Notes under the pieces: model-generated
What the model saw: only the letters and a program-made list of their open reading frames with translations
Databases searched by the model: none
Told to the model about the DNA's origin: nothing
Shown here: positions 10,109-64,000 of the stretch, piece after piece
How positions within the stretch are numbered: position 1 is the stretch's first letter
Layout of the letters: every line of letters starts with the position of its first letter
Assembly: GCF_905475395.1 (NCBI RefSeq)
Contig: NC_058338.1
Coordinates: 94,659,435-94,723,434, forward strand
DNA: 64,000 bases
From: Chrysoperla carnea
Taxonomy: Eukaryota; Arthropoda; Insecta; Neuroptera; Chrysopidae
Direction: 5' to 3'
Program-made: the position numbers and the translations under genes

Positions 10109-10818
10109 AGGATGGTATTCTAATCCTGCAAAGCATGTGTCCAGCGTTTGACATATTAACTGTCAACTAAAGTACTTTCATACGGAAGCCTGAATGGCTC
10201 CCAATCAATTTATGAGAAAGTGGCGCTACACTAGTTTTTAAAGGTGTACTACCCACAAGTATAAAACCAACTTTTAAAAAGCAACTAGTTCACTTTCAAC
10301 AAATGCACTTGTGACTTGTGGTATTATGGAAACGAATCTTTAATTAGACGCTACTGAAACTGTCTGTAATTATTAATAATTATTTGTCTGGATTTAATAA
10401 TAATATGATAATGTTTATAATTTGTCTTATGTAGTTAGTTCAAAATTTTCTTTAGTATTATTTAAAAAATATAATATATGCTTTAATTGTTTATGTTGTT
10501 CTTGGATCTACACATTTCTAATTTCTATCCTTTAAAAGTATTATTAAAAGTGTTTATTATGACATTTAAGTAGAAATCGGCATATGACAAAATACCGACA
10601 TCTTCAAAAAGGTTCGTTTCCATAACGCCACAAGTCACAAGTGCTCTTGTTGAACAAGTGAACTTGAAGTGAACAAGTGACTTTTTAAAAGTTGACTTTA
10701 TACTTGTGGGTAGTACACATTTAAAAAAATAAGCTAGTGTAGCGCCACTTTCTCATAAATTGATTGTGAGCCATTCAGGCTTCCGTACTTTCATGCTAAC
10801 TCCCATAATAATAATAAA
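10109..10818. repeat. Dispersed repeat family U, interrupted
   Basis: The block GGTATTCTAATC...GTGTCCAGCG...TTGACATATTAACTGTCAACTAAAGTACTTTCAT...ACTAACTCCCATAATAATAATAAAT recurs at 19664-19723 plus 22318-22345, at 22370-22510 (reverse) and at 24851-25040. Here it is split by the 605-bp MITE at 10182-10786, then by the Helitron inserted at 10819, after which it resumes near 12350. Confidence 0.65.
10182..10786. mobile_element. hAT/P-type MITE with 8-bp target duplication
   Basis: The ends are ACGGAAGCCTGAATGGCTC and its exact reverse complement. The flanking 8 bp are identical: ACTTTCAT at 10174-10181 and again at 10787-10794. Subterminal arms of about 160 bp are inverted copies, sharing AGAAAGTGGCGCTACACTAG and CACAAGTCACAAGTG motifs. 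No ORF. An 8-bp duplication fits the hAT or P superfamily. A short relative is at 35342-35449. Confidence 0.88.
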
Positions 10819-19058: not shown

Positions 19059-19652
19059 AAGTGAAAACAAACAATTGACTGAGTTAATTGTTGAAATACC
19101 ATGTATAGACAGTGTTGATGCGCAATCGTTTGTTTTTTTGACGTCACGTAAATAATAAAAGATATTCACTTTTAAATAGACACAACAAACACACAACTGA
19201 TATTCCTATATTAATACATACTAAAAAATTTGCACCTATTTAACGCCCTCGTGGGTAAACAGTGATGTTTTCGAAAAAATGTTTCAAACAAAAGTTTTTT
19301 ATTTTTTTATAAGGAACATTTTTTACATTTAAACTTTTGTTCTATCTCTAACGGTTTACAAGATGGGTCCTACGGACCCAAGACCCAATTGACCTATGAT
19401 GCTCATTTACGAACTTGACCTCACTTTTTACGTCCTGAGTACGCTGTAAAAATTTCAGCTCGATATCTTTTTTCGTTTTTGAGTTATCATGTCCACAGAC
19501 GGACGGACGGACGCACAACCGGAAATGGATTAATTAGGTGATTCTATGACCACCTATACCAAAATTTTTTTCGTAGCATCAATATTTTTAAGCGTTACAA
19601 ACTTGGGACGAAACTTAATATACTATGTATATTTCATATATACATGGTATAA
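19059..19652 (+). repeat. Repeat family R, near full-length copy
   Basis: Starts AAGTGAAAACAAACAATTGAC and ends CATATATACATGGTATAA. The segment with the CACATTACACATACA motif seen in other copies is replaced here by a short different stretch (about 19115-19200). A GGACGGACGGACG run is present. Confidence 0.85.
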
Positions 19653-19723
19653 TAATATAAAAGAATGGTATTCTAATCATGCAATGCATGATGGGAAATG
19701 TGTCCAGCGGTTGACATATTAAC

Positions 19724-19974
19724 CATGAAGGTTATAAAGAAGGAGAACGATCGCTATGTACTAAAGCATTAGCGCACCTGTCCCTGAAAATTTGTAGAAT
19801 TTATAGTTCATTTTCAGCCACCAGTCGCGCTGTCGTCGGTAAGTAGTATATTAGCGCACAACAGCTATAGTTTAATTGATACAACTTAGCGATCTCAGCG
19901 CCTCACTTATTTTTTCAAAATATTGGGTACAATATTTTCTATTGCGATCGTTCTCCTTCTTTATAACCTTCATG
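19724..19974. mobile_element. 251-bp MITE, left copy
   Basis: It has perfect 31-bp inverted ends beginning CATGAAGGTTATAAAGAAGG. The sequence appears identical to 22067-22317. Ends starting CATG and 8-bp duplications resemble the P superfamily, with hAT as the alternative. It lies 168 bp before the ZF-B ATG and so may include or displace promoter sequence. Confidence 0.92.
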
Positions 19975-20141
19975 CATCAACCTTAAAATCATTCAAATCA
20001 TTGAAATAACTTTTAGGTTATAACATGTTTACATAAATTGTTAAAAATATTTTATATAATCAAAAATTTATTTAATATTTGACCTTGCAATAAAATTTAC
20101 TTTAAATAATCAATTTCTGGAAGACAGTGAAACAAATTACA

Positions 20142-21746
20142 ATGGACCGTGTACGAATTACATATGAAAAACCAGATACAAGCATTGATATGAAATCTGA
20201 ACACATTCATGAAAATGATAAAAATTCAATTACAATCAACTGTGAAAATAATATTAAAATGGAAAAACAATTAAATACAGAATTTATAATAAAAGAGGAA
20301 ATATTAGAAGACATCGATGTCAACATGGAAAGTGGACAAATTGAAGAAGGTCTGGAAGATAGTTTTACAATGGAACATGGCGGCAGAATTAAGGATGAGG
20401 TTCTAAACGATTGTTATTCATTGGAATGTATACCAATTAAAAATGAAAAACTGGAAAATTCAACTACTTTAATTAACTACGAAAATATTAAACTTGAAAA
20501 ACAATTAAATACAGAGCTCATAATTAAAGATGAAACAAATTATGAACCAGTACCAGATAATTATGAAAAAAAATCATTTTCATGTGATATTTGTAATAAA
20601 ACATTTACTCAGAATTATTCGCTAGTTATACATAAACGAATTCACACCGGAGAAAAATCATTTTCATGTGATATTTGTAATAAAACATTTACTCAGCAAG
20701 GTTATTTAGCTAAACATAAACGAATTCACACCGGAGAAAAACGATTTTCATGTGATGTTTGTAATAAAATATTTACTTATCATCATAACTTAGTTTCACA
20801 TAAACGTATTCACACCGGAGAAAAATCATTTTCATGTGATATTTGTAATAAAACATTTACTCAGCAAGGTTATTTAGCTAAACATAAACGAATTCACACC
20901 GGAGAAAAACGATTTTCATGTGATGTTTGTAATAAAATATTTACTTATCATCATAACTTAGTTTCACATAAACGTATTCACACCGGAGAAAAATCATTTT
21001 CATGTGATGTTTGTAATAAAACATTTACTCACCATTATAGCTTAGTTTTACATAAACGTATTCACACCGGAGAAAAACCATTTTCATGTGATGTTTGTAA
21101 TAAAACATTTACTCAGAATTATTCGCTAGTAATACATAAACGAATTCACACCGGAGAAAAATCATTTTCATGTGATATTTGTAATAAAACATTTACTCAG
21201 CAAGATTATTTAGCTAGACATAAACGAATTCACACCGGAGAAAAACGATTTTCATGTGATATTTGTAATAAAACATTTACTGCATCATCTTCTTTAGTTT
21301 CACATAAACTAATTCACAGCGGAGAAAAACCATTTTCATGTGATGTTTGTAATAAATCATTTACTCAGAAAGGCTATTTAGCTATACATAAACGAATTCA
21401 CACCGGAGAAAAACGATTTTCATGTGATGTTTGTAATAAAACATTTACTTATCAACATAATTTAGTTTCACATAAACTAATTCACACCGGAGAAAAACCA
21501 TTTTCATGTGATATTTGTAATAAAACATTTACTCAGCAAGGTTATTTAGCTAAACATAAACGAATTCACACCGGAGAAAAATCATTTTCATGTGATATTT
21601 GTAATAAATCATTTACTCAGAAAGGTTCACTAGTTTCACATATACGAATTCACACCGGAGAAAAACCATTTTCATGTAATATTTGCAATAAAACATTTCG
21701 ACATAAAATTTCTTTAATTGGTCATAAACGTATTCATACTAAATAA
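20142..21746 (+). CDS. ZF-B: C2H2 zinc-finger protein, 14 fingers
   Basis: Single-exon ORF of 534 residues starting at the ATG at 20142; an upstream in-frame GTG at 20127 is not a credible start. Residues 1-143 are acidic and contain two copies of a Glu-Lys-Gln-Leu-Asn-Thr-Glu motif followed by Ile-Ile-Lys-(Asp/Glu)-Glu. Fourteen complete C2H2 fingers fill residues about 144-532, joined by Thr-Gly-Glu-Lys linkers. Most begin Phe-Ser-Cys-Asp-(Ile/Val)-Cys-Asn-Lys-Thr-Phe-Thr. Fingers 2-3 and 4-5 are identical at the protein level through a 168-bp tandem duplication. Variation is concentrated at helix positions that contact DNA. It is probably a DNA-binding regulator of unknown target. It is carried inside the composite element above. 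Confidence 0.93.
   Translation: MDRVRITYEKPDTSIDMKSEHIHENDKNSITINCENNIKMEKQLNTEFIIKEEILEDIDVNMESGQIEEGLEDSFTMEHGGRIKDEVLNDCYSLECIPIKNEKLENSTTLINYENIKLEKQLNTELIIKDETNYEPVPDNYEKKSFSCDICNKTFTQNYSLVIHKRIHTGEKSFSCDICNKTFTQQGYLAKHKRIHTGEKRFSCDVCNKIFTYHHNLVSHKRIHTGEKSFSCDICNKTFTQQGYLAKHKRIHTGEKRFSCDVCNKIFTYHHNLVSHKRIHTGEKSFSCDVCNKTFTHHYSLVLHKRIHTGEKPFSCDVCNKTFTQNYSLVIHKRIHTGEKSFSCDICNKTFTQQDYLARHKRIHTGEKRFSCDICNKTFTASSSLVSHKLIHSGEKPFSCDVCNKSFTQKGYLAIHKRIHTGEKRFSCDVCNKTFTYQHNLVSHKLIHTGEKPFSCDICNKTFTQQGYLAKHKRIHTGEKSFSCDICNKSFTQKGSLVSHIRIHTGEKPFSCNICNKTFRHKISLIGHKRIHTK
20657..20992 (+). repeat. 168-bp tandem duplication of two fingers
   Basis: 20657-20824 and 20825-20992 appear identical and each encodes one Gln-Gln-Gly-Tyr-Leu-Ala-Lys finger plus one Tyr-His-His-Asn-Leu-Val-Ser finger. 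The absence of visible differences implies a recent duplication. Confidence 0.9.
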
Positions 21747-21852
21747 AAATCATTTTAATGTAATATTTAGATAATTTTTCCTTAAAATATATTTGTTTAT
21801 TTTTTGTTGATAATTTTTGTAAATAACGTTTTTTTGGTTTAAAAATAAATAA

Positions 21853-21935
21853 AAAAATCAAAAACCCGATTGTGTTAAATAAAATCTGAAAAGAAAGAAA
21901 CAAGTCCAGTAGTTTACATATGCAATAGCAATTTT
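21853..21935. repeat. Half of MITE family W downstream of ZF-B
   Basis: AAAAACCCGATTGTGTTAAATAAAATCTGAAAAGAAAGAAACAAGTC-type sequence matches one arm of the inverted repeat at 35505-35745. Only one arm is present here. Confidence 0.6.
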
Positions 21936-22066
21936 AATCGATTATTAATCAATTAATAGATTTAGCTTGGTTTCATTTTTATCCGTGTTTTCAGAAAAAA
22001 CTTCCCTTGCAAAATATGACTCTTCCTGACATCTATTTTCGAAGAAAAAAAGTACATTACTGGGAC

Positions 22067-22317
22067 CATGAAGGTTATAAAGAAGGAGAACGATCGCTAT
22101 GTACTAAAGCATTAGCGCACCTGTCCCTGAAAATTTGTAGAATTTATAGTTCATTTTCAGCCACCAGTCGCGCTGTCGTCGGTAAGTAGTATATTAGCGC
22201 ACAACAGCTATAGTTTAATTGATACAACTTAGCGATCTCAGCGCCTCACTTATTTTTTCAAAATATTGGGTACAATATTTTCTATTGCGATCGTTCTCCT
22301 TCTTTATAACCTTCATG
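22067..22317. mobile_element. 251-bp MITE, right copy
   Basis: Same length, orientation and sequence as the copy at 19724-19974. Its right flank is ATATTAAC, which matches the left flank of the other copy and not its own left flank. Confidence 0.92.
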
Positions 22318-22325
22318 ATATTAAC

Positions 22326-22872: not shown

Positions 22873-23086
22873 TACAATTTGTAATATGAATAATAATTTT
22901 TTGATTAAAAATTTCTCGAAAATTCGATAGGAACTTAATATAAGATTAAAAATTAATAAACTTTGGTTCGTGTATTATGACTATTATGTACTATTAAGAA
23001 ATTCGTGTATAAACCATTAAAATATTTTTGGTGACAAGAGATGGCATGGCAGTCAAAAAAATTTACATTAGGTACAGATATAGGTA

Positions 23087-23382
23087 CCAAGTGTTTTTGT
23101 ACCATCTAGGCATATACATATCTGTAGTATGACAGAATACATCCGTTTAGTAATGCATCTAAGCGAGAGAAGCTTGGAGAGTGGAAGTTTTTTAGTTAAT
23201 TAATAATATTTGTATGCAACAAAACTCCCACTCTCTGCATGCATACAACAAAAGTCTTGTGTATCGTATCTGTAGCCTTACAATATATGTATATAATACC
23301 TCTCGCTTAGATGCATTACTAAACGGATGTATTCTGTCATACTACAGATATGTATATGCCTAGATGGTACAAAAACACTTGG
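23087..23382. mobile_element. TA-flanked MITE with ~85-bp inverted ends
   Basis: CCAAGTGTTTTTGTACCATC... at 23087 is matched by its reverse complement ending at 23382, with near-perfect identity over about 85 bp. TA flanks both ends (23085-23086, 23383-23384). This pattern fits a Tc1/mariner-type MITE. Confidence 0.85.
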
Positions 23383-23384
23383 TA

Positions 23385-36624: not shown

Positions 36625-38002
36625 GCGTGATCAAATTAACTTTTTGAACAATTTAATTCTGAGTTCGGAGAAAAAAATTGAATTTAGTAGATCATTATGA
36701 TACAAATTGAGGAAACTAAAATCCAACATTTTTTGATGGTCGGAAGGGGTCCAAAAAAAATGGTAAAGTGGCCTAATCCGGTCTTTCGCGTCAGACACCG
36801 TCGGATTGAGTTAAAAATAAAAAAGTGTTTAATAAGCTTAGGCGCCGTAAAAAGGCGAAAAGAATGAGCTGCGAATGAACCCGATTGGTCCATCGATGTC
36901 CCCACAAATTGCAAAAAACCATCGATTTTGCTCGAAAGTTCAAAACTTCATAGCTCTTGTTGTTTTAAAGATTCAAAGCTGAGATTTAAATGGATTGTAG
37001 CTTTTGTACCCATGAAGTATCACACACAATTTCAGCAAGATCGAATGTATACTTTTTGCAAACCGCAGCTGAATGCAAAAAACAGGACTTTTGTAAAATG
37101 GCCCTAAAAAAGTTGTGGTGCGGTAACGCGCTATTTTTTTTACGCGAGCATATGCTTCAATAGTTAAAGTAATACCTACTAAAGTGCCAACCTCTCATCT
37201 TTAGTAAAAGTTACTAAAATATTAATTTTAAATTACTATTATTTTAAATTATAACATTAAAAATAGGATGGAAGTAATGGGAGCAATTATTAAGAGACAG
37301 AAGTTATGTGACATTATAGTCTTAATAATTGCTCCCATTACTTCCATCCTATTTTTAATGTTATAATTTAAAATAATAGTAATTTAAAATTAATATTTTA
37401 GTAACTTTTACTAAAGATGAGAGGTTGGCACTTTAGTAGGTATTACTTTAACTATTGAAGCATATGCTCGCGTAAAAAAAATAGCGCGTTACCGCACCAC
37501 AACTTTTTTAGGGCCATTTTACAAAAGTCCTGTTTTTTGCATTCAGCTGCGGTTTGCAAAAAGTATACATTCGATCTTGCTGAAATTGTGTGTGATACTT
37601 CATGGGTACAAAAGCTACAATCCATTTAAATCTCAGCTTTGAATCTTTAAAACAACAAGAGCTATGAAGTTTTGAACTTTCGAGCAAAATCGATGGTTTT
37701 TTGCAATTTGTGGGGACATCGATGGACCAATCGGGTTCATTCGCAGCTCATTCTTTTCGCCTTTTTACGGCGCCTAAGCTTATTAAACACTTTTTTATTT
37801 TTAACTCAATCCGACGGTGTCTGACGCGAAAGACCGGATTAGGCCACTTTACCATTTTTTTTGGACCCCTTCCGACCATCAAAAAATGTTGGATTTTAGT
37901 TTCCTCAATTTGTATCATAATGATCTACTAAATTCTATTTTTTTCTCCGAACTCAGAATTATCTAAAAATTGACGCCATTTTTTTTTAATTTGATCACAC
38001 TA
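36625..38002. mobile_element. Fold-back element P1 with ~670-bp arms and 3-bp target duplication
   Basis: The element is almost wholly palindromic. The left arm 36625-37296 and right arm 37319-38002 are near-perfect reverse complements around a loop of about 22 bp. The ends are TAGCGTGATCAAATTAA and TTAATTTGATCACACTA, flanked by TTG on both sides (36622-36624, 38003-38005). The outer ~50 bp of the arms differ from each other. A 76-codon ORF occurs once on each arm. No transposase domain is recognised. Confidence 0.9.
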
Positions 38003-39592: not shown

Positions 39593-42500
39593 TTACTTTT
39601 TAGCATGTTTGTACTGGTCATGCAACTTCTTCGCGATTTTATACAAGCTACTACTATTGAAAGGCAAAGATCTTAAATCTTTACCGGCCAATATACTATT
39701 AAATCCGTTAAAATAAGTGAACACAATCATCTTGCAAAAATTATGCACAATATTAAATTTCAACTCCGTAGAATGCTCGCATTCTACGAAGTTGAAATTT
39801 ACGTTCTGAAAAACCGTTTTCCTAATCACTTTTAACAAATGTTTTTTGTTTGGGTCATTTTTCAAAATAAATTTGGCAATATTATACGCCTTAGTCATAT
39901 TTAATAAAAATCTACTATTTATATAATTAAGCCTAGTAGCAACGGCCCCCCCAAACTCTTTTTCGCGCACAAAATTTAAAAATTCATTTTCCTCCTCCTG
40001 CTGCAAAAACACATTATACTTACACTTCTCACACTTTTTTATTTTAATGTTTTTTAAGATGTACCCGCCTACATATGCAATAGCATTTTTTTCTAAATCA
40101 TTGAAAATATTACTCAAAACTTCACTCTAATAAGAAAAAAAAAAAAACATTAGTAACAAATAAAAGTAATTTTTTGTAACTGTTTTCAGAAAATTTTAAA
40201 ATCGATAAAAATAACTATTCTAACTATAATTTTTTAGAAACGTAGAAACATAATCAAGTTCTTAAATAAATTTAACAAAAGTTATCAATAATTGTTAATA
40301 ATCAAAAGTTATTATTTACCTGTAGGATAAATGTTTGCAATGGAATCAGCAAATCCGACCCATCATCTTCACAATTCCCTCCCACAGAATGTTTACTAAC
40401 TAAGTTAGTGACCAGAAGAGATTTGTAAAACGGTCCAAAAGCATGGCACGATGGATTCGACCACCGACTTCCTCGTTGACGAACTTTACCGAAAAAATTC
40501 TCTAAAGGATCTTGGTTCAAAAACCTGGGAACCAACGTCTTTATTCCAAGATCCTTTAATTTATTCGTCAGTAAAATTAAATTTGTCAACGTAAACACCC
40601 AATTTTTGAAAGTCGGTGGGCGTGTCATTCGTCTTCCACTCGAGTCGTGGCATTCCATACTTTTGAAAATGGGGATAGCCTCTCTCCAAAACTTTACTTG
40701 TAAGCTATCCCCTTCCTTAAGATCAATCTGAGTTTTGAGTTTTTTTCCTCCTTCGTTGAAAGGTCCGCAACCATTGACGCTATCGAACACATCATCCATA
40801 AATTTTAAAAAAACTGCCGTTTCTGTAGCGCGCCTCTCCATTTTCGTTTCACCAATAGTGAATTCTGAAAAATAAACCTCATTTAAGCTTTGTTTTATAT
40901 TTACATTTAATTGGCAATAAAAGTTTTACGCAAACACTTACACACTTTGCTAGTGATGAAATGTAGAAAATCAAATTTTAAAAATTATTGTCCATTTACT
41001 GAAGAATTAAGAATATTTGTAAAAATGTGAATCTTTAATAAAATAAACTTTAACTTACCACTTTTGGCCATTAAATTGATTCCTGCCGCAACTGAACGAC
41101 TAAAAATTTGGGCACAAACAGAAACTTTCATTTTTTTTAAAATTTTTGGATTGACATGATGCTCCGTCAACTTGTGCATGACTCTAAGATCGCCACTTGG
41201 AGAGTCCAATGTCCATGCCTTCAGGATATCGTTCCACTTCGCCACTTTTTTTTCACCGTCGATCTGGAATGAAATATTTTTTGTTAACAAATTATTTCTT
41301 ATACCTTTTAAGAGATGGGGAGTGTCAAAGAGAGGAATTATTGTTGAATCTCCAATTTCAAAAACTTGATGCCTGAGTTCCTCACCTCGGGCCAAATATT
41401 TTCCCCGCGTATCCTCTAGTAAACGATGGATCGCGTTGATATTATTTCACCCTTGGTCACAAATAGTACCGACAACATTAAATCCAGCATTTTGAGCAGC
41501 CAAAATAATTTCTTTAATGGCCTTTACTATTTGTGGCCCTTTTGCGGCTCCATTCACGAACTGATATAGCACCGGCTGTTTCCAATTTTGGACAATTCCT
41601 CTTAACATAAAAACCTGTAATAATGAAAAAAAAGTTTGAGTTAAAATAGATATCATAAAAAAAATTATAATATAAGATTTTTAGAATAAATGAAGAGTTA
41701 TGGGTACAATGATTAAATCAAATATAAATCGGCATTTTTGTCAACAAATTCGATCTATAAATATATTTTATTATATGAGTGAGTAATAAAAGAGATTAAA
41801 ATGTGTTACAACATAACCAACCCTTTGTAATTCTAAACAATTCGGTATTATTTGTACTACCAAAAGCAATAAATATTTAATTACGATTCTTTGCTTTTAA
41901 GTTTTATTTTTACAAAATATTTTGTTATTACAGTTACCTTTCAAGTAGGCATAATTTTATTACTAAAAGTGATGACGATTTGTTTAGAATTATAATCAAG
42001 GGACAATTTATGGTTTACTTAAGTTTATCTGTCCTTCAATTTGTTAAATTCCACACCCATTTAAAAAAAATTATGTTATTATACTTTCCAAAACATAGTT
42101 TTTGTAAATTTTGTTATTGTTCCGCAAAAATTTTTATTATATTGTAAAAAAGTGGGCGGGTGATATGAAAGATATTAAAATACGGGTAAATTGTTATCAT
42201 GATTCTAATTTAAATATTATAACATATTTTATTTTGAAAAACAATAATTTATAATAAAAATGTGTGTTAAAAATTTGTATAACGCGAAAAGTTAAATGTA
42301 ATGTAAACTGTAATTTTAAATAGCAACTTACTTGTACATGATCCGCAATCTTATCGGTTTGGTGATCCCCAAAATCTTCAAAACCTTCAACGCAATCTTT
42401 ATGGACATTATACGTCAAATTACGTGATAGACTCATTTCGTCAAAAAGTAAGACGCATGTCCGGTTTGAAGGATCGAGTCTATTCACCATTCGACTAAGT

Positions 42501-44987
42501 CCATTAAAGATTTCCAAATTAAGTCCTGGTGACACGGGTAAGCGGTTTAAAAATTTCATCAGGGTGACTCTTGACGGAAGCGCAAATATCTTGGATAGCA
42601 ATCTGTATCCACTTGGGCTCTGTTTAAACAAAGCCAGAGACATAACCTTGTCGTCTGTGGAAAATCGACGCCCCTTCATTTTCTTTTTTGAGCAACTAAT
42701 CTGACTCAAAAAAAACTTTCTGCAATTCTCGTTCAGAGTTTCTGTAAGTTTGTTGAAACTTGCTTGCGACGAGAATTGTTCTGCTTTTTTTAAGCGAGCT
42801 TGAAAATTTAACGACTTGCGAAGCTGGTATGATGCCCGCCGTTGAAATTTTCGTGCTGTAATATACAATCGCTTTTTCTGAGGCGACAATCTAACTTTTG
42901 TTAATGAGTCCAAATACTCTGCACCTTAAAAATGAGAATGATCAAATTATTACTATACATATATTTAAATTTAAGTGGCATATGGAAGATTGTATCAAAA
43001 AAGAATTATTATCATATAGCCACGACAAATTATTTTAATGGCATAATCTTTTAGTATACCTACTTATAAATTAAATGCGTGTCGAAACGGCATTCATAAT
43101 AAAGCGATTAATTTTCAAGGTATTTAAATTTTGTTTTATTTATTCATTTCAAAATTTATAGAACTAGAATTTGAGGTTACTATTAAAAAAAATTGTTTGA
43201 ACTGAAAAAATGCTTACCATGTAGAGACACAGGTGTTCTAGGAGGTGATTTTTCTTGAACCAAACGACTCGGACCAGGAACAGCTAATTCTTTCAAACTA
43301 CCAGGTTCTTGAACCAATTCATTTGGCCTTGAAACATTCACCTCCAAAGAAGAATACGCCTCTTCCACATCTGCATTTCTCTGGACTTCTGGAAGAGTAA
43401 AAATAAATATGATATAAAAAACCATTTTTCGAACACGAAACGTCTCCTTGAATCATAGTTTACTTGATTCGAGTGAAAAAGTCACCTATTTTTTGATTAT
43501 AAATATAGCTTTACAAATTGAATTCCTTTAAATTTCGTATTCTAATAGTATTTATTCTTCGATTATTTGATAATCAAAAGTTTCATAAATATTTGCAAAA
43601 AATAAAAATGGTATTTTATTGAAAATAAAATTTTTAATAACACTCTCGATCTTCTAGATCTAGAGTAAAAAAAAAAATTTTAATAATGAAATTATAAACA
43701 GACTGTGTTCTTAAAAACAATTGTCAATTTAAACAAAAATTGAAATAATTGTTTTATTTTAGAAATACCGTTTTGTAATTTACACAAAAATGAATTTAAA
43801 AGCTACATATCGAACATATTTAAGTGACGTATAATATTTATTTTTTTTAATGGTACGATCAACTACTTATTATCGATTATTTATTAACAATCAACTATCC
43901 TACAAAATAGAACTCGTGTATCAGAAATTGGCATAAAATTAAAATAATTAGATTCAAAAAAATTCAATTTGAGTTTATTTACATTGAGTTGATAGGTATT
44001 AGTAAACTTATACAGTTATAAGATTACTTTCAAAATTAAAAAGCGTTCATATAAAGAAAACGTTTTTGTAAAAAATTATATTCTTTTGATCACGATTTAT
44101 GTTATTTTATATAACTTCATTTGATTATAACTATTTATCTTACCTTTATTAACCGGCAAAGCAGTCTTTTTAAGATTTGTAACATTGTGAAATGTAGCAT
44201 ATTTCATTTCTTCCGGAAAGTGTTTATCGCAAATACGGTAAGATTTTCGTTTTGAAATATCCAAGTCCGGACGTCCAATGAATGTAGCCCAAATCTTAAA
44301 TCGCTGTGGACAAAAATAATAGTTATCTTTTGCGTTTGTATTGAAACTTCTTAAAAACTACACGTCTTAAAATTATAAGGAACTATGCATTCGACCACTT
44401 AATTTAGTGAAATATATTCATACCATTTATAAAAATTTTTGTCATTAAATGATGTACACATTTATTAACAATATTCCAATAATTCACACATTAGATTTTT
44501 TAGGTTGGAATTTTGTGTTTTTTTTATTTAATTTATAAAAAAAAACTAAACAATTGTAAGAAATGACATACTTGTTGACTTAATTTAGTAAATATACTCA
44601 ACTCATGCCATCATTGGAATTTATTATTTAAATAAACATTTATTAACAGTAACATGATACGTCCACATGAGATTTTTAGGTTAGGTTACAATTTTTTGTA
44701 TTAAATTTATAAAAAACCAAACATTTTAAAATTGTAAGAAATTATGTATTCGTTAAACTTAATTTATAATGAAATATACTCATTTCATGATTGGATATCT
44801 TTTTAAAATTCAATAATGTACACATTTAATAACAATAATCTAATATTTCCATATGAGTTTATTAAGTTAAAAATTCAATAAATAATAATTTGAATATGTA
44901 GGTACTTACATTATCGCCAGGTAACACATGCATTTTTGTTTCACTCACTTTACTTTCGCATCCAGGTACACCACAATTGACTCCCAT
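39593..44987 (-). pseudogene. THAP-domain P-element-type transposase (THAP9-like), seven exons, one in-frame stop
   Basis: Exons: 44987-44910, 44303-44144, 43388-43218, 42924-42332, 41614-41059, 40864-40320, 40126-39593. All junctions are GT/AG with matching phases, giving 879 codons, close to THAP9. Exons 1-2 encode a complete THAP zinc-binding DNA-recognition domain: Cys-Gly-Val-Pro-Gly-Cys, His-Val-Leu-Pro, Trp, Cys-Asp-Lys-His-Phe, Ala-Leu-Pro. Exons 4-6 encode the RNase H-like catalytic domain with its insertion: Leu-Leu-Phe-Asp-Glu-Met, Ile-Cys-Asp-Gln-Gly and Leu-Asn-Gln-Asp-Pro-Leu-Glu-Asn-Phe-Phe-Gly. Exon 7 encodes the C-terminal Tyr-Val-Gly-Gly-Tyr-Ile domain. A TGA at about 41447-41449 replaces the residue after Cys-Asp-Gln-Gly, otherwise usually Ser or Thr; everything else is open. 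No P-like terminal repeats were found flanking it, so it may be an immobile or domesticated copy recently inactivated, or the stop may be an allele or sequencing error. Confidence 0.9.
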
Positions 44988-45539
44988 TTTTATTTATTAA
45001 ATATTTTAATAATTCACAAATAATAAATTTAAATGTATCTATCAGTATCTATACAAAAATTATTTTGTAAATAAACATAATGACAGTAGACAAAACTATT
45101 TATAGTCGATAACATAGAGTACAACATATATTTTTTCTTTGTTTTTGTTTAAATCAGCGCTACAGGTAGCAGAATCGGAACTAAATTTATCTAAAAAGTT
45201 CCCATAATGTAACAAGGATACGAGATTTCAGCGTATGGATAGGAGATAATTAAGTAATTTACAAATAAATATACATTCATACATACAAAATATGCGCGAA
45301 AATCATAACCACTACTTGACAATTGGATAAAAATATTTTCAAAAAAATTTGTTTTTCTCTTTAGAGGAAGATTATGATATTGGAAGAAAAATCGCCCAAA
45401 TTCCCTCTCAATTTTGCCGCTTCTTACTTTACATATCGTGCTTATAACTAATTTGTCCTGCTGAACGCATCCTGACAAGTTAGTAAAAGTGAAGGTATTA
45501 CGATTTTTAAATGAAAAACAACAGTATTATTTAATAAAA
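44988..45539. promoter_or_regulatory. Divergent intergenic region between the transposase gene and ALKBH1
   Basis: The two ATGs (44987 minus, 45540 plus) are 552 bp apart and point away from each other, so this stretch must hold both promoters. No TATA or initiator was assigned. The minus ORF at 45191-45478 is not supported. Confidence 0.5.
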
Positions 45540-48500: not shown

Positions 48501-51500
48501 ATCTAGATTGCTTTTAAAAGTTTACGGTCTTTGTGATAAAAAGAACTGTATTCGTTGTGTGCGTAGTCATGGTAGGGACAATAAAATCGATGCCAGCGCT
48601 TTAAGTGAAAAATTTTGGAGTTAAAGGGGGCTGTTATGACTAATTTGCAATTCTTTACATGTTAATATAATAGAAATGTCAAATTAAAATTATTGAAAAA
48701 CACTAAGTAATTAAACTTAATGCATTAAAAATTGTGAAAATAAGAAATCAAATTGAACAAATATTATTTTTCAAATGTAAATTATCATAATTATTTATTT
48801 AAATTTGTGAGACAAGAATATTAAATTTTAAATGTAAGTAATTTTAGTCACAAGTTTGTAATTAAATCTTAAAAATATTGATTAGTCCAGCCAACAAGTT
48901 CAAATTTGTGAAATATAAAGACAAGGGTCGTAAAAATACGCGTGTATCCGAATCCAACGAGCTATCACAGGTATTTTTACAAGCCTTATCTCTACATTTC
49001 AACAAATTGAACTTGTTGACTAGACTAATATAAATTATACTACATAATTCGTATAACAAACAAAGCATCTATTGTCTGCAACTGACAATGACATAACGTT
49101 CACAGCACTCTTTACAACACTTAAGGAGTAAACTCCAGTCGTGCTTCGGAGCTGATACACGCAATTTTTTTTCTCTTAACTTAGGGAACTATAAGATCCT
49201 TTGAATAAAGTTTAAAAAAAATAGATGTTAACCTGTGATCCTCGATACATTTATACTTCCTTAGTTCATAGTTTTTATACCTTGATATATTTCATACTAA
49301 GTTTAGTCCCAAGTTTGTAACGCTTAAAAATATTAATGCTACGAACAAAATTTTAATATAGGTGTTCATAAATTTACTTAAAGAGTCCATTTTCGATTGT
49401 CTGTCCGTCTGTCTATTAACACGAGAATTCAAAAACAAAAAGAGATATCAGGGATATAAAAAGTGAGTTCGAGTTCGTAAATGAGCAACATAGATCAATT
49501 GGGTTTTGGGTCTGTAGGACCCATATTTTAAACCGTTAGAGATAAAAACAAAAGTTTAAATGTATAAAATGTTCCTTATAAAAAAATAAACAACTTTTTT
49601 TTGAAACATCTTTTCGTAAACATCACTGTTTACCCGTGAGGGCGTAAATTGGTAAGAAATATTATACAGTGTGTTCATTTCAAAAGTATCCATCCTTAAT
49701 AATTCTTGACCTGGCGTGATTATTGTTTTGTGTGAAAAATGGTACCTAGAGAATTTTAGGTTTTACCCCTTCGCTCCTTACCAGCCCAACTTTGAAATTT
49801 CAAAAAGCACTCCCTACCTTGTGATATTTCATTAGAATGGGTATAAAATTCTCTATTGAACCATGTTAAAGAAAATGTACTCGATCGATTAGTTCTTAAG
49901 GTAGAAGGTATGAATTCCATCTTCTGTGTAGTCTATCTTAAGGTACAATCGATCGATTTCATTTTTCATCATGGTTGAATAGAGAATTTTATGCCCTTTC
50001 AAATGATATATAACTAGGTAAGGGATACCATAAGTTGGGGTAAATGAGCAACATAGGTCAATTGGATCTTGGGCTCGTAGGACCCCTCTTCTAAACCGTT
50101 AGAAACAGAACAAAAGTTACAGTGTACAAAATATTCCTTATAAAAAAGTAAACAACTTTTGTTTGAAACATTTTTTTTATAAACATCACTGTTTAGCCGT
50201 TAGGGCGCAAATTGTATAGTATGTATTATATGGGAATATCAGTTATGTATGTGTGACATGTATAGGTATATGTGTAATGTGATAGAGTAATCTCAATACT
50301 GTCTATACTAGTGTGATCAAATTAACTTTTTGAATAATTTAATTCTGAGTTCGGAGAAAAAAATTGAATTTAGTAGATCATTATGATACAAATTGAGGAA
50401 ACTAAAATCTAACATTTTTTGATGGTCGGAAGGGGTAAAAAAAAAATGGTAAAGTGGCCTAATCCGGTCTTTCGCGTCAGACACCGTCGGATTGAGTTAA
50501 AAATAAAAAAGTGTTTAATAAGCTTAGGCGCCGTAAAAAGGCGAAAAGAATGAGCTGCGAATGAACCCGATTGGTCCATCGATGTCCCCACAAATTGCAA
50601 AAAACCATCGATTTTGCTCGAAATTTCAAAACTTCATAGCTCTTGTTGTTTTAAAGATTCAAAGCTGAGATTTAAATGGATTGTAGCTTTTGTACCCATG
50701 AAGTATCACACACAATTTCAGCAAGATCGAATGTATACTTTTTGCAAACCGCAGCTGAATGCAAAAAACAGGACTTTTGTAAAATGGCCCTAAAAAAGTT
50801 GTGGTGCAATAACGCGCTATTTTTTTTACGCGAGCATATGCTTCAATAGTTAAAGTAATACCTACTAAAGTGCCAACCTCTTATCTTTAGTAAAAGTTAC
50901 TAAAATATTAATTTTAAATTACTATTATTTTAAATTATGACATTAAAAATAGGATGGGAGTAATGTGAGCAATTATTAAGAGACAGAAGTTATGTGACAT
51001 TGTAGTATGATGCATATGCATTAAAAATTGTGATGCACTTCAAACGATGCACTTACTATATTGAACAAAAGTTCAATATAGTAAGTGTATCACAATATTA
51101 AATGCATATGCATCATACTATAATGTCACATATAATAATTGCTCACATTACTCCCATCCTATTTTTAATGTCATAATTTAAAATAATAGTAATTTAAAAT
51201 TAATATTTTAGTAACTTTTACTAAAGATAAGAGGTTGGCACTTTAGTAGGTATTACTTTAACTATTGAAGCATATGCTCGCGTAAAAAAAATAGCGCGTT
51301 ATTGCACCACAACTTTTTTAGGGCCATTTTACAAAAGTCCTGTTTTTTGCATTCAGCTGCGGTTTGCAAAAAGTATACATTCGATCTTGCTGAAATTGTG
51401 TGTGATACTTCATGGGTACAAAAGCTACAATCCATTTAAATCTCAGCTTTGAATCTTTAAAACAACAAGAGCTATGAAGTTTTGAAATTTCGAGCAAAAT

Positions 51501-52223
51501 CGATGGTTTTTTGCAATTTGTGGGGACATCGATGGACCAATCGGGTTCATTCGCAGCTCATTCTTTTCGCCTTTTTACGGCGCCTAAGCTTATTAAACAC
51601 TTTTTTATTTTTAACTCAATCCGACGGTGTCTGACGCGAAAGACCGGATTAGGCCACTTTACCATTTTTTTTGGACCCCTTCCGACCATCAAAAAATGTT
51701 AGATTTTAGTTTCCTCAATTTGTATCATAATGATCTACTAAATTCAATTTTTTTCTCCGAACTCAGAATTATCTAAAAATTGACGCCATTTTTTTTTTAT
51801 TTGATCACACTATACATGATATTTCAACAATTAACTCAGTCAATTGTTTGTTTTCACTTTTTGTTTTGTTACAGTTTTGGTCAAACAGCAGTATTTATGG
51901 TTGGTGGTTTAACAAAAGATGATGAACCGTTAGCGATTTTTTTAAATAGTGGTGATATTGTTATTATGACAAATGAAACAAGATTATGTTATCATGCGGT
52001 ACCATGCATCCTAAAAACAACAAATGAAACATGGAATTGTATTGACGATGAAGAGGAAGCGGCGGCGAACAAAGAAGAGGCGAACGAAGAAGAATTCGAT
52101 CAAATTCAAAGAAATTCAAATATCGATTTAATAAATAAATGTAAAAATGCAACATTTTTTAAACCATTTCATAAATATTTACAAACATCACGAATTAATA
52201 TCAATATTCGACAAGTTTATTAA
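45540..52223 (+). CDS. ALKBH1: Alkylated DNA/RNA repair-type dioxygenase ALKBH1
   Basis: Five exons: 45540-45638, 45698-45812, 47084-47292, 48262-48455, 51875-52223. The joined frame is 966 nt, 321 residues. ALKBH1 is an Fe(II)/2-oxoglutarate dioxygenase acting on methylated nucleic acids, including tRNA, in nucleus and mitochondria. Matches to the family include Val-Tyr-Asn-Phe, Phe-Val-Lys-Asn-Pro-Phe, Lys-Leu-Arg-Trp-Ile-Thr-Leu-Gly-Tyr-His and Phe-Pro-Ser-Asp-Leu. The iron ligands are seen as His-Thr-Asp in exon 4 and the distal His in Cys-Tyr-His-Ala-Val-Pro; the oxoglutarate Arg pair is in Arg-Ile-Asn-Ile-Asn-Ile-Arg-Gln-Val. The ATG at 45540 fits the family start; open frame upstream has no ATG. 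The exon 3 donor (AAAA|GTTGGT) is weak; the stronger-looking GTAAAT four bases later would break the frame. A Glu-rich insert (Glu-Glu-Glu-Ala-Ala-Ala-Asn) precedes the C-terminus. Introns 2, 3 and 4 are filled with repeats. Confidence 0.95.
46036..46707 (+). mobile_element. Repeat with inverted arms and a 149-codon ORF, in ALKBH1 intron 2
   Basis: 46036-46140 is an imperfect reverse complement of 46505-46635; shared blocks are GCGGATTTCTCGAGACAATTG and TGGCTCGCAGGTTGTAA. The ORF 46258-46707 reads Glu-Leu-Ala-Pro-Phe-Pro-Leu-Ser-Trp and Glu-Gly-Met-Arg-Lys-Gly-Thr-Lys-Pro-Leu-Leu. From memory this resembles a recurrent repeat-encoded protein fragment in arthropod genomes, but I cannot name its family. 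It is on the same strand as ALKBH1. Confidence 0.45.
47548..48188. mobile_element. Inverted-repeat element in ALKBH1 intron 3
   Basis: The ends AGGGTGTCTTTTTTAAGTTG and CAACTTAAAAAAGAGACACC are inverted. The homology continues inward through TGACATAT(A/G)CTTGAAA with looser matches beyond. A single-armed relative is at 28364-28860. Confidence 0.7.
48882..49160. repeat. Small inverted repeat joined to a family T copy, ALKBH1 intron 4
   Basis: AGTCCAGCCAACAAGTTCAA at 48885 and TTGAACTTGTTGACTAGACT ending at 49026 are inverted. The sequence after it, from ATAAATTATACTACATA to ACACTTAAGGAGTAAAC, matches 17954-18057. Confidence 0.6.
49272..51865 (-). repeat. Repeat family R copy, duplicated and interrupted by fold-back element P2
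   Basis: Family R sequence runs 49275-49675. About 360 bp of other sequence follows, then R resumes at 50035-50308. P2 interrupts it, and the last part (CATGATATTTCAACAATTAACTCAG...TTGTTTTCACTTTTTG) continues at 51816-51865, ending just upstream of the ALKBH1 exon 5 acceptor. Confidence 0.8.
50309..51812. mobile_element. Fold-back element P2 with ~670-bp arms and 3-bp target duplication
   Basis: Close relative of P1 at 36625-38002, with ends TAGTGTGATCAAATTAA and its inverse, flanked by TAC (50306-50308, 51813-51815). Joining the flanks restores the uninterrupted R sequence TCTATACATG. The centre (about 51000-51125) carries an extra palindrome absent from P1, built on ATGATGCATATGCATT. It lies in ALKBH1 intron 4. 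Confidence 0.9.
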
Positions 52224-62914: not shown

Positions 62915-63473
62915 TTTTATGAAAACAAACAATTGACTGAGTTAATTGTTGAAATACCATGCATAGTCAGTGTTGATTTCTTTATCACATTACACATACA
63001 AACATGTGACACATACATAACTGATAATCAAGTATAGTACATATTATAAAGTTTCCGCCTAATTGGCGCCCTCACGGGTAAACAGTGATATTTACAAGAA
63101 AATGTTTCATACAAAAGTTGTTTAATTTTTGATAAGGAACATTTTTTACATTTGAACTTTTGTTCTATCTCTAACGGTTTACAAGATGGGTCCTTCGGAC
63201 CCAAAACCCAATTGACCTATGATGCTCATTTACGAACTTGACCTCACTTTTTACGTCCTGAGTACGCTGTAAGAATTTCAGCTCGATATCTTTTTTCGTT
63301 TTTGAGTTATCGTGTCCACAGACGGACGGACGGACGGACAACCGGAAATAGACTAATTAGGTGGTTTTATGAACACCTATGACAAAATTTTTTTCCCAGC
63401 ATCATTATTTTTAAGCGTTACAAACTTTTGACTAAACTTAATATACTATGTATATTTCATATATACATGGTAT
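62915..63473 (+). repeat. Repeat family R, full-length copy
   Basis: About 559 bp from GAAAACAAACAATTGACTG to CATATATACATGGTATAA, containing all family landmarks and a GGACGGACGGACGGAC run. It is the best single-piece copy in the window and a good reference for the others. Confidence 0.9.
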
Positions 63474-63885
63474 AATTATTGTTATTTGATTGGATGGTGT
63501 CCAAAAACGGGGTGACAGTATATATTGAACTGTATTCCGTTTTAACCAGTAACTATTATTGATAACTGGGAGTTGCAACTCGCCAAATGGTGATAATATT
63601 TCGTACTAGTTAATATCAGAAGAAGACCCGAATTCAGTAGTTATAATTTGTACTTGTACTTACTATTTTTTAAGGCCAATAAAAATATTCAAATTCAAAT
63701 CAGATAAATCCCGCCAACTGGCAATAAAATTCATGGGCCGTTTTTTCAGTAGTTCCAATTTAGACCACCTGATTATTTAACATTTGTCAACAGCTGGCAA
63801 TAAAAGTATACTGAATAAACGCCATCTTTCACAGTAATCGCAGTGTATATCGGAACGCACCCTTTATTATAATATAGTCATCAGG
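63474..63885. other. Spacer, nothing recognised
   Basis: No ORF or repeat identified. It lies upstream of the presumed next ZF gene. Confidence 0.4.
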
Positions 63886-63887
63886 GA

Positions 63888-64000
63888 TCATCAACCTTAA
63901 AATAATTCAAATCATTGAAATAACTTTGAGGTTATAACATGTTTACATAAATTGTTAAAAATATTTTTTATAATCAAAAAATTATTTAATATTTGACCTT
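63888..64000 (+). promoter_or_regulatory. Homologue of the ZF-B 5' region at the window end
   Basis: CATCAACCTTAAAAT...ATTCAAATCATTGAAATAACTTT...GAGGTTATAACATGTTTACATAAATTG...TTTGACCTT matches 19975-20091 with only a few differences. In ZF-B the equivalent point is about 50 bp before the ATG. Confidence 0.85.

Follow-up and report, generated by a model that had tools for sequence, protein, structure and literature searches.

The junctions around a zinc-finger gene of Chrysoperla carnea suggest that this gene and the two identical MITEs between which it lies arrived at their present location together. The 2594-bp block composed of the gene and the two MITEs behaves as a single insertion, because only its outermost 8-mers match and its outer flanks, when joined, align to a related repeat elsewhere in the window (that is, the whole stretch of 64,000 nucleotides analyzed here). 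We consider it likely that the block was displaced by a P-type macrotransposition in which the two outward-facing termini of the MITE pair, the left end of one element and the right end of its partner, were used.

The MITE pair and its target site

Sequence comparison shows that the left MITE (19724-19974) and the right MITE (22067-22317), both on the plus strand and 251 bp long, do not differ at any position (0/251) and flank the zinc-finger gene in direct orientation, in agreement with the original prediction. Each MITE possesses inverted ends that start with CATGAAGG and carry a CATGA tip; they are perfect over 31 bp and extend to 34 bp if one mismatch is allowed. No coding sequence could be recognized within the element. 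Three different 8-mers are found at the junctions: the same 8-bp target duplication, ATATTAAC, is present at both outer sides (19716-19723 and 22318-22325), whereas inside the block CATCAACC adjoins the left MITE (19975-19982) and ACTGGGAC adjoins the right one (22059-22066), so that the predicted combination of equal outer and unequal inner flanks is indeed observed. The inner 8-mers are presumed to represent the two target duplications of the donor locus. Neither MITE taken singly is surrounded by an 8-bp repeat; the duplication frames only the block as a whole. The probability of one given 8-mer match arising by chance is 1.5e-5, or 4.8e-5 when the base composition of the window is used. 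The single other occurrence of ACTGGGAC in the window (33406) was dismissed as a relative given that its context appears unrelated by eye.

The window was scanned for exact 8-bp repeats around inverted ends that agreed at 16/20 or more positions, or at 15/20 with 10/12, and that were located 60 to 12,000 bp apart; 8-mers with fewer than three letters or more than 60 occurrences were skipped. Among the 12 pairs obtained, 10 are nested in two large palindromes, one belongs to an unrelated 605-bp element, and the remaining one is the MITE-gene-MITE block, the sole structure of its kind in this set. No further copies of the MITE were found in the window, the best other ungapped matches to the 31-bp end having 11 and 10 mismatches on the two strands. 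Searches of bacterial, archaeal, and viral sequences, which say little about insects, detected neither the terminal 24 bases of the MITE (0 loci in genome_contigs) nor 22 bases of its interior (0 in each of genome_contigs and viral_contigs). The first 20 bases of the end do match in 10 viral contigs; these matches are taken for chance, since none of the 10 continues along the 31-bp end, the next 11 bases agreeing at only 0 to 5 positions.

The plus-strand segment 10099-10171 represents an empty paralogue of the target site, in which ATATTAAC occurs just once (10153-10160). When the outer flanks of the block are joined with one copy of ATATTAAC, the resulting sequence aligns to this site through the junction, around which 23/23 bases are identical; a gap of 10 bases interrupts the match further to the left, and on the right side the alignment stops 11 bases after ATATTAAC. 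Taken by itself, the right flank agrees with the 10.1 kb site at 19/19 bases (E = 8e-4). The uninterrupted identity across the junction implies that the left and right outer flanks were contiguous before the insertion. Thus, the block interrupts a repeat sequence that is present elsewhere without it, and the empty site that had been predicted near 10150-10165 is borne out, the pre-insertion state being represented by a paralogous site rather than by an allele.

Several other repetitive structures were noticed in the window. The region 36654-37961 consists of 642-bp inverted arms separated by a 24-bp spacer; the arms were first scored as 100% complementary, and direct comparison indicates that they are not strictly identical. 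Nested inverted pairs at 50527-51584 suggest a second large palindrome, which has several stretches in common with the palindrome at 36.8-37.8 kb. The 605-bp element (10182-10786), with inverted ends that match at 19/20 positions and an 8-bp duplication, ACTTTCAT, is separated from the empty site by about 20 bp. In the right flank of the block, at approximately 23085-23384, the inverted arms of another foldback-like element were recognized by eye.

The zinc-finger cargo and its MITE-free paralogue

The cargo is a single open frame on the plus strand (20142-21746) that encodes a protein of 534 amino acids with 14 C2H2 fingers spaced 28 amino acids apart. Between this gene and the MITE-proximal 8-mers lie a 5′ flank (19983-20141) and a 3′ flank (21747-22058), both given on the plus strand, and a portion of the latter (21842-21920) resembles a repeat at 35.5-35.7 kb. 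A MITE-free paralogue of the 5′ flank, cut by the end of the window, is found at 63889-64000 (plus strand). Its similarity to the cargo (108/112 identical bases between 19975-20086 and 63889-64000) begins with the very first base after the left MITE, which is the first base of CATCAACC; accordingly, the 63889 locus contains CATCAACC without a MITE.

The original prediction had pointed to this MITE-free stretch, which is indeed there, and had regarded it as the donor locus; the latter identification appears doubtful. Divergence accumulated since the move should have marked the MITEs in the same way, yet 4/112 differences separate the 63889 locus from the cargo against 0/251 between the MITEs (Fisher P = 0.009). 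At the point-estimate divergence of the 63889 locus, the chance of observing no differences between the MITEs is 1e-4; the rejection of this locus as the immediate donor is not a strict one, however, because that chance rises to 0.08 at the lower 95% bound of the divergence (1.0%). Gene conversion between the MITEs could also hide differences and thereby weaken the argument. Judging from these sequence differences, the 63889 locus is more likely an older empty paralogue than the immediate donor. No donor locus bearing both of the predicted target duplications is present in the window.

Affinities of the MITE and the neighboring transposase gene

With respect to the superfamily of the MITE, an assignment to the P superfamily is plausible but modest, the fit resting on the 31-bp ends, the 8-bp duplication, and the CATGA tip. 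The inverted ends in this superfamily are about 27-31 bp long (PMC1562414, PMC7776569), with 13 bp given for a zebrafish element (PMC7776569), as far as the accessible portions of these sources describe them, and the Drosophila P element combines 31-bp inverted ends, an 8-bp duplication, and a CATGA tip in the same manner (PMC7776569, PMC9682801, in the parts available). The MITE shows the perfect inverted ends of this length, and the 8-bp duplication is present around the whole block, not around a single MITE. The first 20 bases of the MITE share 12/20 positions with the Drosophila P end as given in the available text of PMC9682801 (shuffle P = 0.008); this level of similarity is reached by 111/7132 of the 20-mers in the window that start with CA and by 24/412 of those that start with CATG, and without the first four bases the agreement falls to 8/16 (P = 0.19), which is within chance. 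Against the complete 31-bp P end, the MITE matches at 14/31 positions (P = 0.02, and 0.19 without the first four bases). The CATG terminus and the 8-bp duplication that the original prediction likened to the P superfamily are present, and past the first four bases the MITE end is no closer to the P end than shuffled sequences. The tip of a hobo MITE shares only 7/20 positions (P = 0.33), and a hAT origin of the MITE is weakly rejected on these grounds.

A P-type (THAP9-like) transposase gene, apparently with introns, was recognized by its domains on the minus strand at 39593-44988. It encodes an N-terminal RNase H domain, a GTP-binding domain, and a C-terminal RNase H domain, and a THAP domain emerges once two predicted exons are joined. 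The gene contains an in-frame stop after the residues CDQG (41447-41449), for which a sequencing error might conceivably be responsible. No inverted repeats like the MITE ends were found near this gene in the window. When terminal repeats belonging to the gene itself were sought at a permissive threshold (agreement of at least 15/20), 667 pairs were returned; the top of the list near the gene holds AT-rich candidates only, and the best pair by its flanks (38983 and 45065; 16/20, flanks 7/8), likewise AT-rich, is unlike the MITE end and may be due to chance. The transposase gene that had been noted 20 kb away is therefore of the P type, as its RNase H, GTP-binding, and THAP domains attest, and its predicted relevance to the block does not stand: given the in-frame stop and the lack of MITE-like ends nearby, it was rejected as the autonomous partner of the MITE and provides no evidence on the enzyme that moved it. 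It does demonstrate that P-type genes exist in this genome; among other insects, P elements have been reported in one aphid genome (PMC9783078, according to its accessible part).

Origin of the block

We propose the following course of events. The zinc-finger gene would first have been flanked by two insertions of one P-type MITE, at CATCAACC and at ACTGGGAC, both in the same direction. A transposase provided in trans would then have brought together the two ends farthest apart, namely the left end of the left MITE and the right end of the right MITE, which, by virtue of the direct orientation, are arranged as in a single element. The whole 2594 bp would have been cut out and inserted at ATATTAAC inside another repeat, the insertion duplicating those 8 bp once. 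In this scheme, we infer the donor structure, the one-step character of the move, and the P-type enzyme along with its source. The identity and direct orientation of the MITEs, the single outer duplication, the related empty target, and the MITE-free gene flank at 63889 all speak for macrotransposition, and the length of the block (2.6 kb) is near that of the P element (2.9 kb according to the available text of PMC7776569). On the opposite side of the ledger, the block is seen in a single copy, the window lacks the predicted donor locus, its P-type gene combines an in-frame stop with a lack of MITE-like ends, the MITE end resembles the P end no better than shuffles do past the first four bases, and the empty-site match extends just 11 bases rightward of the 8-mer.

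A substantially less probable, though by no means negligible, explanation starts from a solo MITE at ATATTAAC, into which a MITE-bearing zinc-finger circle recombined, or at which a break, caused for instance by excision, was gap-repaired from a MITE-gene-MITE template located elsewhere. Such events would yield identical junctions (one outer duplication and two direct MITEs), the identity of the MITEs would likewise be expected, and ectopic recombination in the P superfamily has been documented for Galileo inversions (PMC2775673, as far as its available text goes). The inner 8-mers are unlike each other, and this scenario therefore requires, no less than macrotransposition does, a donor in which two direct MITEs occupied separate target sites; in addition, an exchange within 251 bp of homology has to be postulated, so that more steps are involved. 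The original prediction of a single 2.6-kb composite insertion thus accounts for all of the junctions better than any other explanation considered, even as recombination or gap repair at a solo MITE leaves the same end product and a single copy does not tell the two apart; macrotransposition is preferred because it takes fewer steps and because the block is close to an ordinary P element in size.

The other scenarios account for the junctions far less readily. Zinc-finger genes and repeats are plentiful in the window, and two MITEs could in principle have inserted independently around a resident zinc-finger gene, with the match of the outer 8-mers being coincidental; each MITE would then be expected to have its own 8-bp duplication, which is found for neither, the related repeat at 10.1 kb shows the outer flanks joined without interruption, and a coincidence at a chance of 1.5e-5 to 4.8e-5 would have to be accepted, all of which renders this possibility exceedingly improbable. 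Derivation from a segmental duplication in common with the 63 kb region is very improbable as well. At both places, a copy of the same repeat lies in the same orientation upstream of the gene flank (19062-19656 and 62920-63479), but this is poor evidence of a shared duplication, since there are several other copies of the 19062-19656 repeat in the window, its 396-base core is closer, by a small margin, to the copy at 27.5 kb (374/396) than to that at 62.9 kb (369/396), and the 409 bp between the repeat and the gene flank at 63 kb are unmatched elsewhere in the window; furthermore, at the empty site the left flank up to ATATTAAC is followed directly by the right flank. Finally, the 100% identity of the MITEs might hint at a duplication introduced in assembly, which we hold to be most improbable given that an error would be expected to produce neither a single outer duplication with different inner flanks nor an empty paralogue.

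Macrotransposition of the kind proposed here has parallels in several known systems. In Drosophila, foldback-flanked large transposing elements carried the white gene between two copies of a DNA transposon, a precedent in an insect that differs from the MITE block in the much larger size and the other type of element. In maize, macrotransposons of Ac were reportedly described by Huang and Dooner in 2008; the ends of Ac and fractured-Ac are those of the hAT superfamily. According to the accessible part of PMC9910405, these macrotransposons, in which a linked pair of transposons and the intervening DNA move jointly, are excised and inserted again, 8-bp duplications marking the endpoints, and a composite insertion arising through re-replication is a variant of alternative transposition. 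The block resembles them in these respects and differs in its ends, which are P-like MITEs of 251 bp instead of Ac and fractured-Ac termini, and in its cargo, a single compact gene. The P-MITEs of Anopheles gambiae are likewise non-autonomous and flanked by 8-bp duplications, their P masters having ends of 27-31 bp, and en-bloc transposition of two neighboring P copies has been proposed as one origin of such an element; as outlined in the available portion of that source (PMC1562414), the proposal includes a deletion between the copies, whereas here an open gene is kept between whole MITEs. Galileo offers a further comparison, with P-superfamily copies in rearrangements that are read via target duplications; it differs in its 7-bp duplications and long, internally repetitive ends, and the inversion was explained by ectopic recombination, not transposition, the recombined copies being chimeric (PMC2775673, in the text accessible). 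That chimerism gives no test in the present case, the MITE copies having no differences that could reveal a chimera. Among the literature matches listed, with thin coverage of subscription journals, we recognized no gene-carrying P-type macrotransposon in an insect, nor any P-type elements tied to zinc-finger genes in aphids.

Maize Ac provides reported cases of macrotransposition and an Anopheles P-MITE a proposed one; the block described here is probably one clean example. The decay of its footprint should make the natural en-bloc move of an entire animal gene flanked by a MITE pair difficult to observe. The junctions of this block are still exact, and the event is therefore open to test via empty alleles, solo-MITE alleles, and further block alleles. 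Rather unlikely, in our estimation, is the broader scenario in which the block is a member of a dispersing family and pairs of P-type MITEs have repeatedly captured entire zinc-finger genes and spread them, aiding the C2H2 expansion in this genome. If recurrent, however, such moves would provide a simple cut-and-paste route to the duplication of zinc-finger genes.
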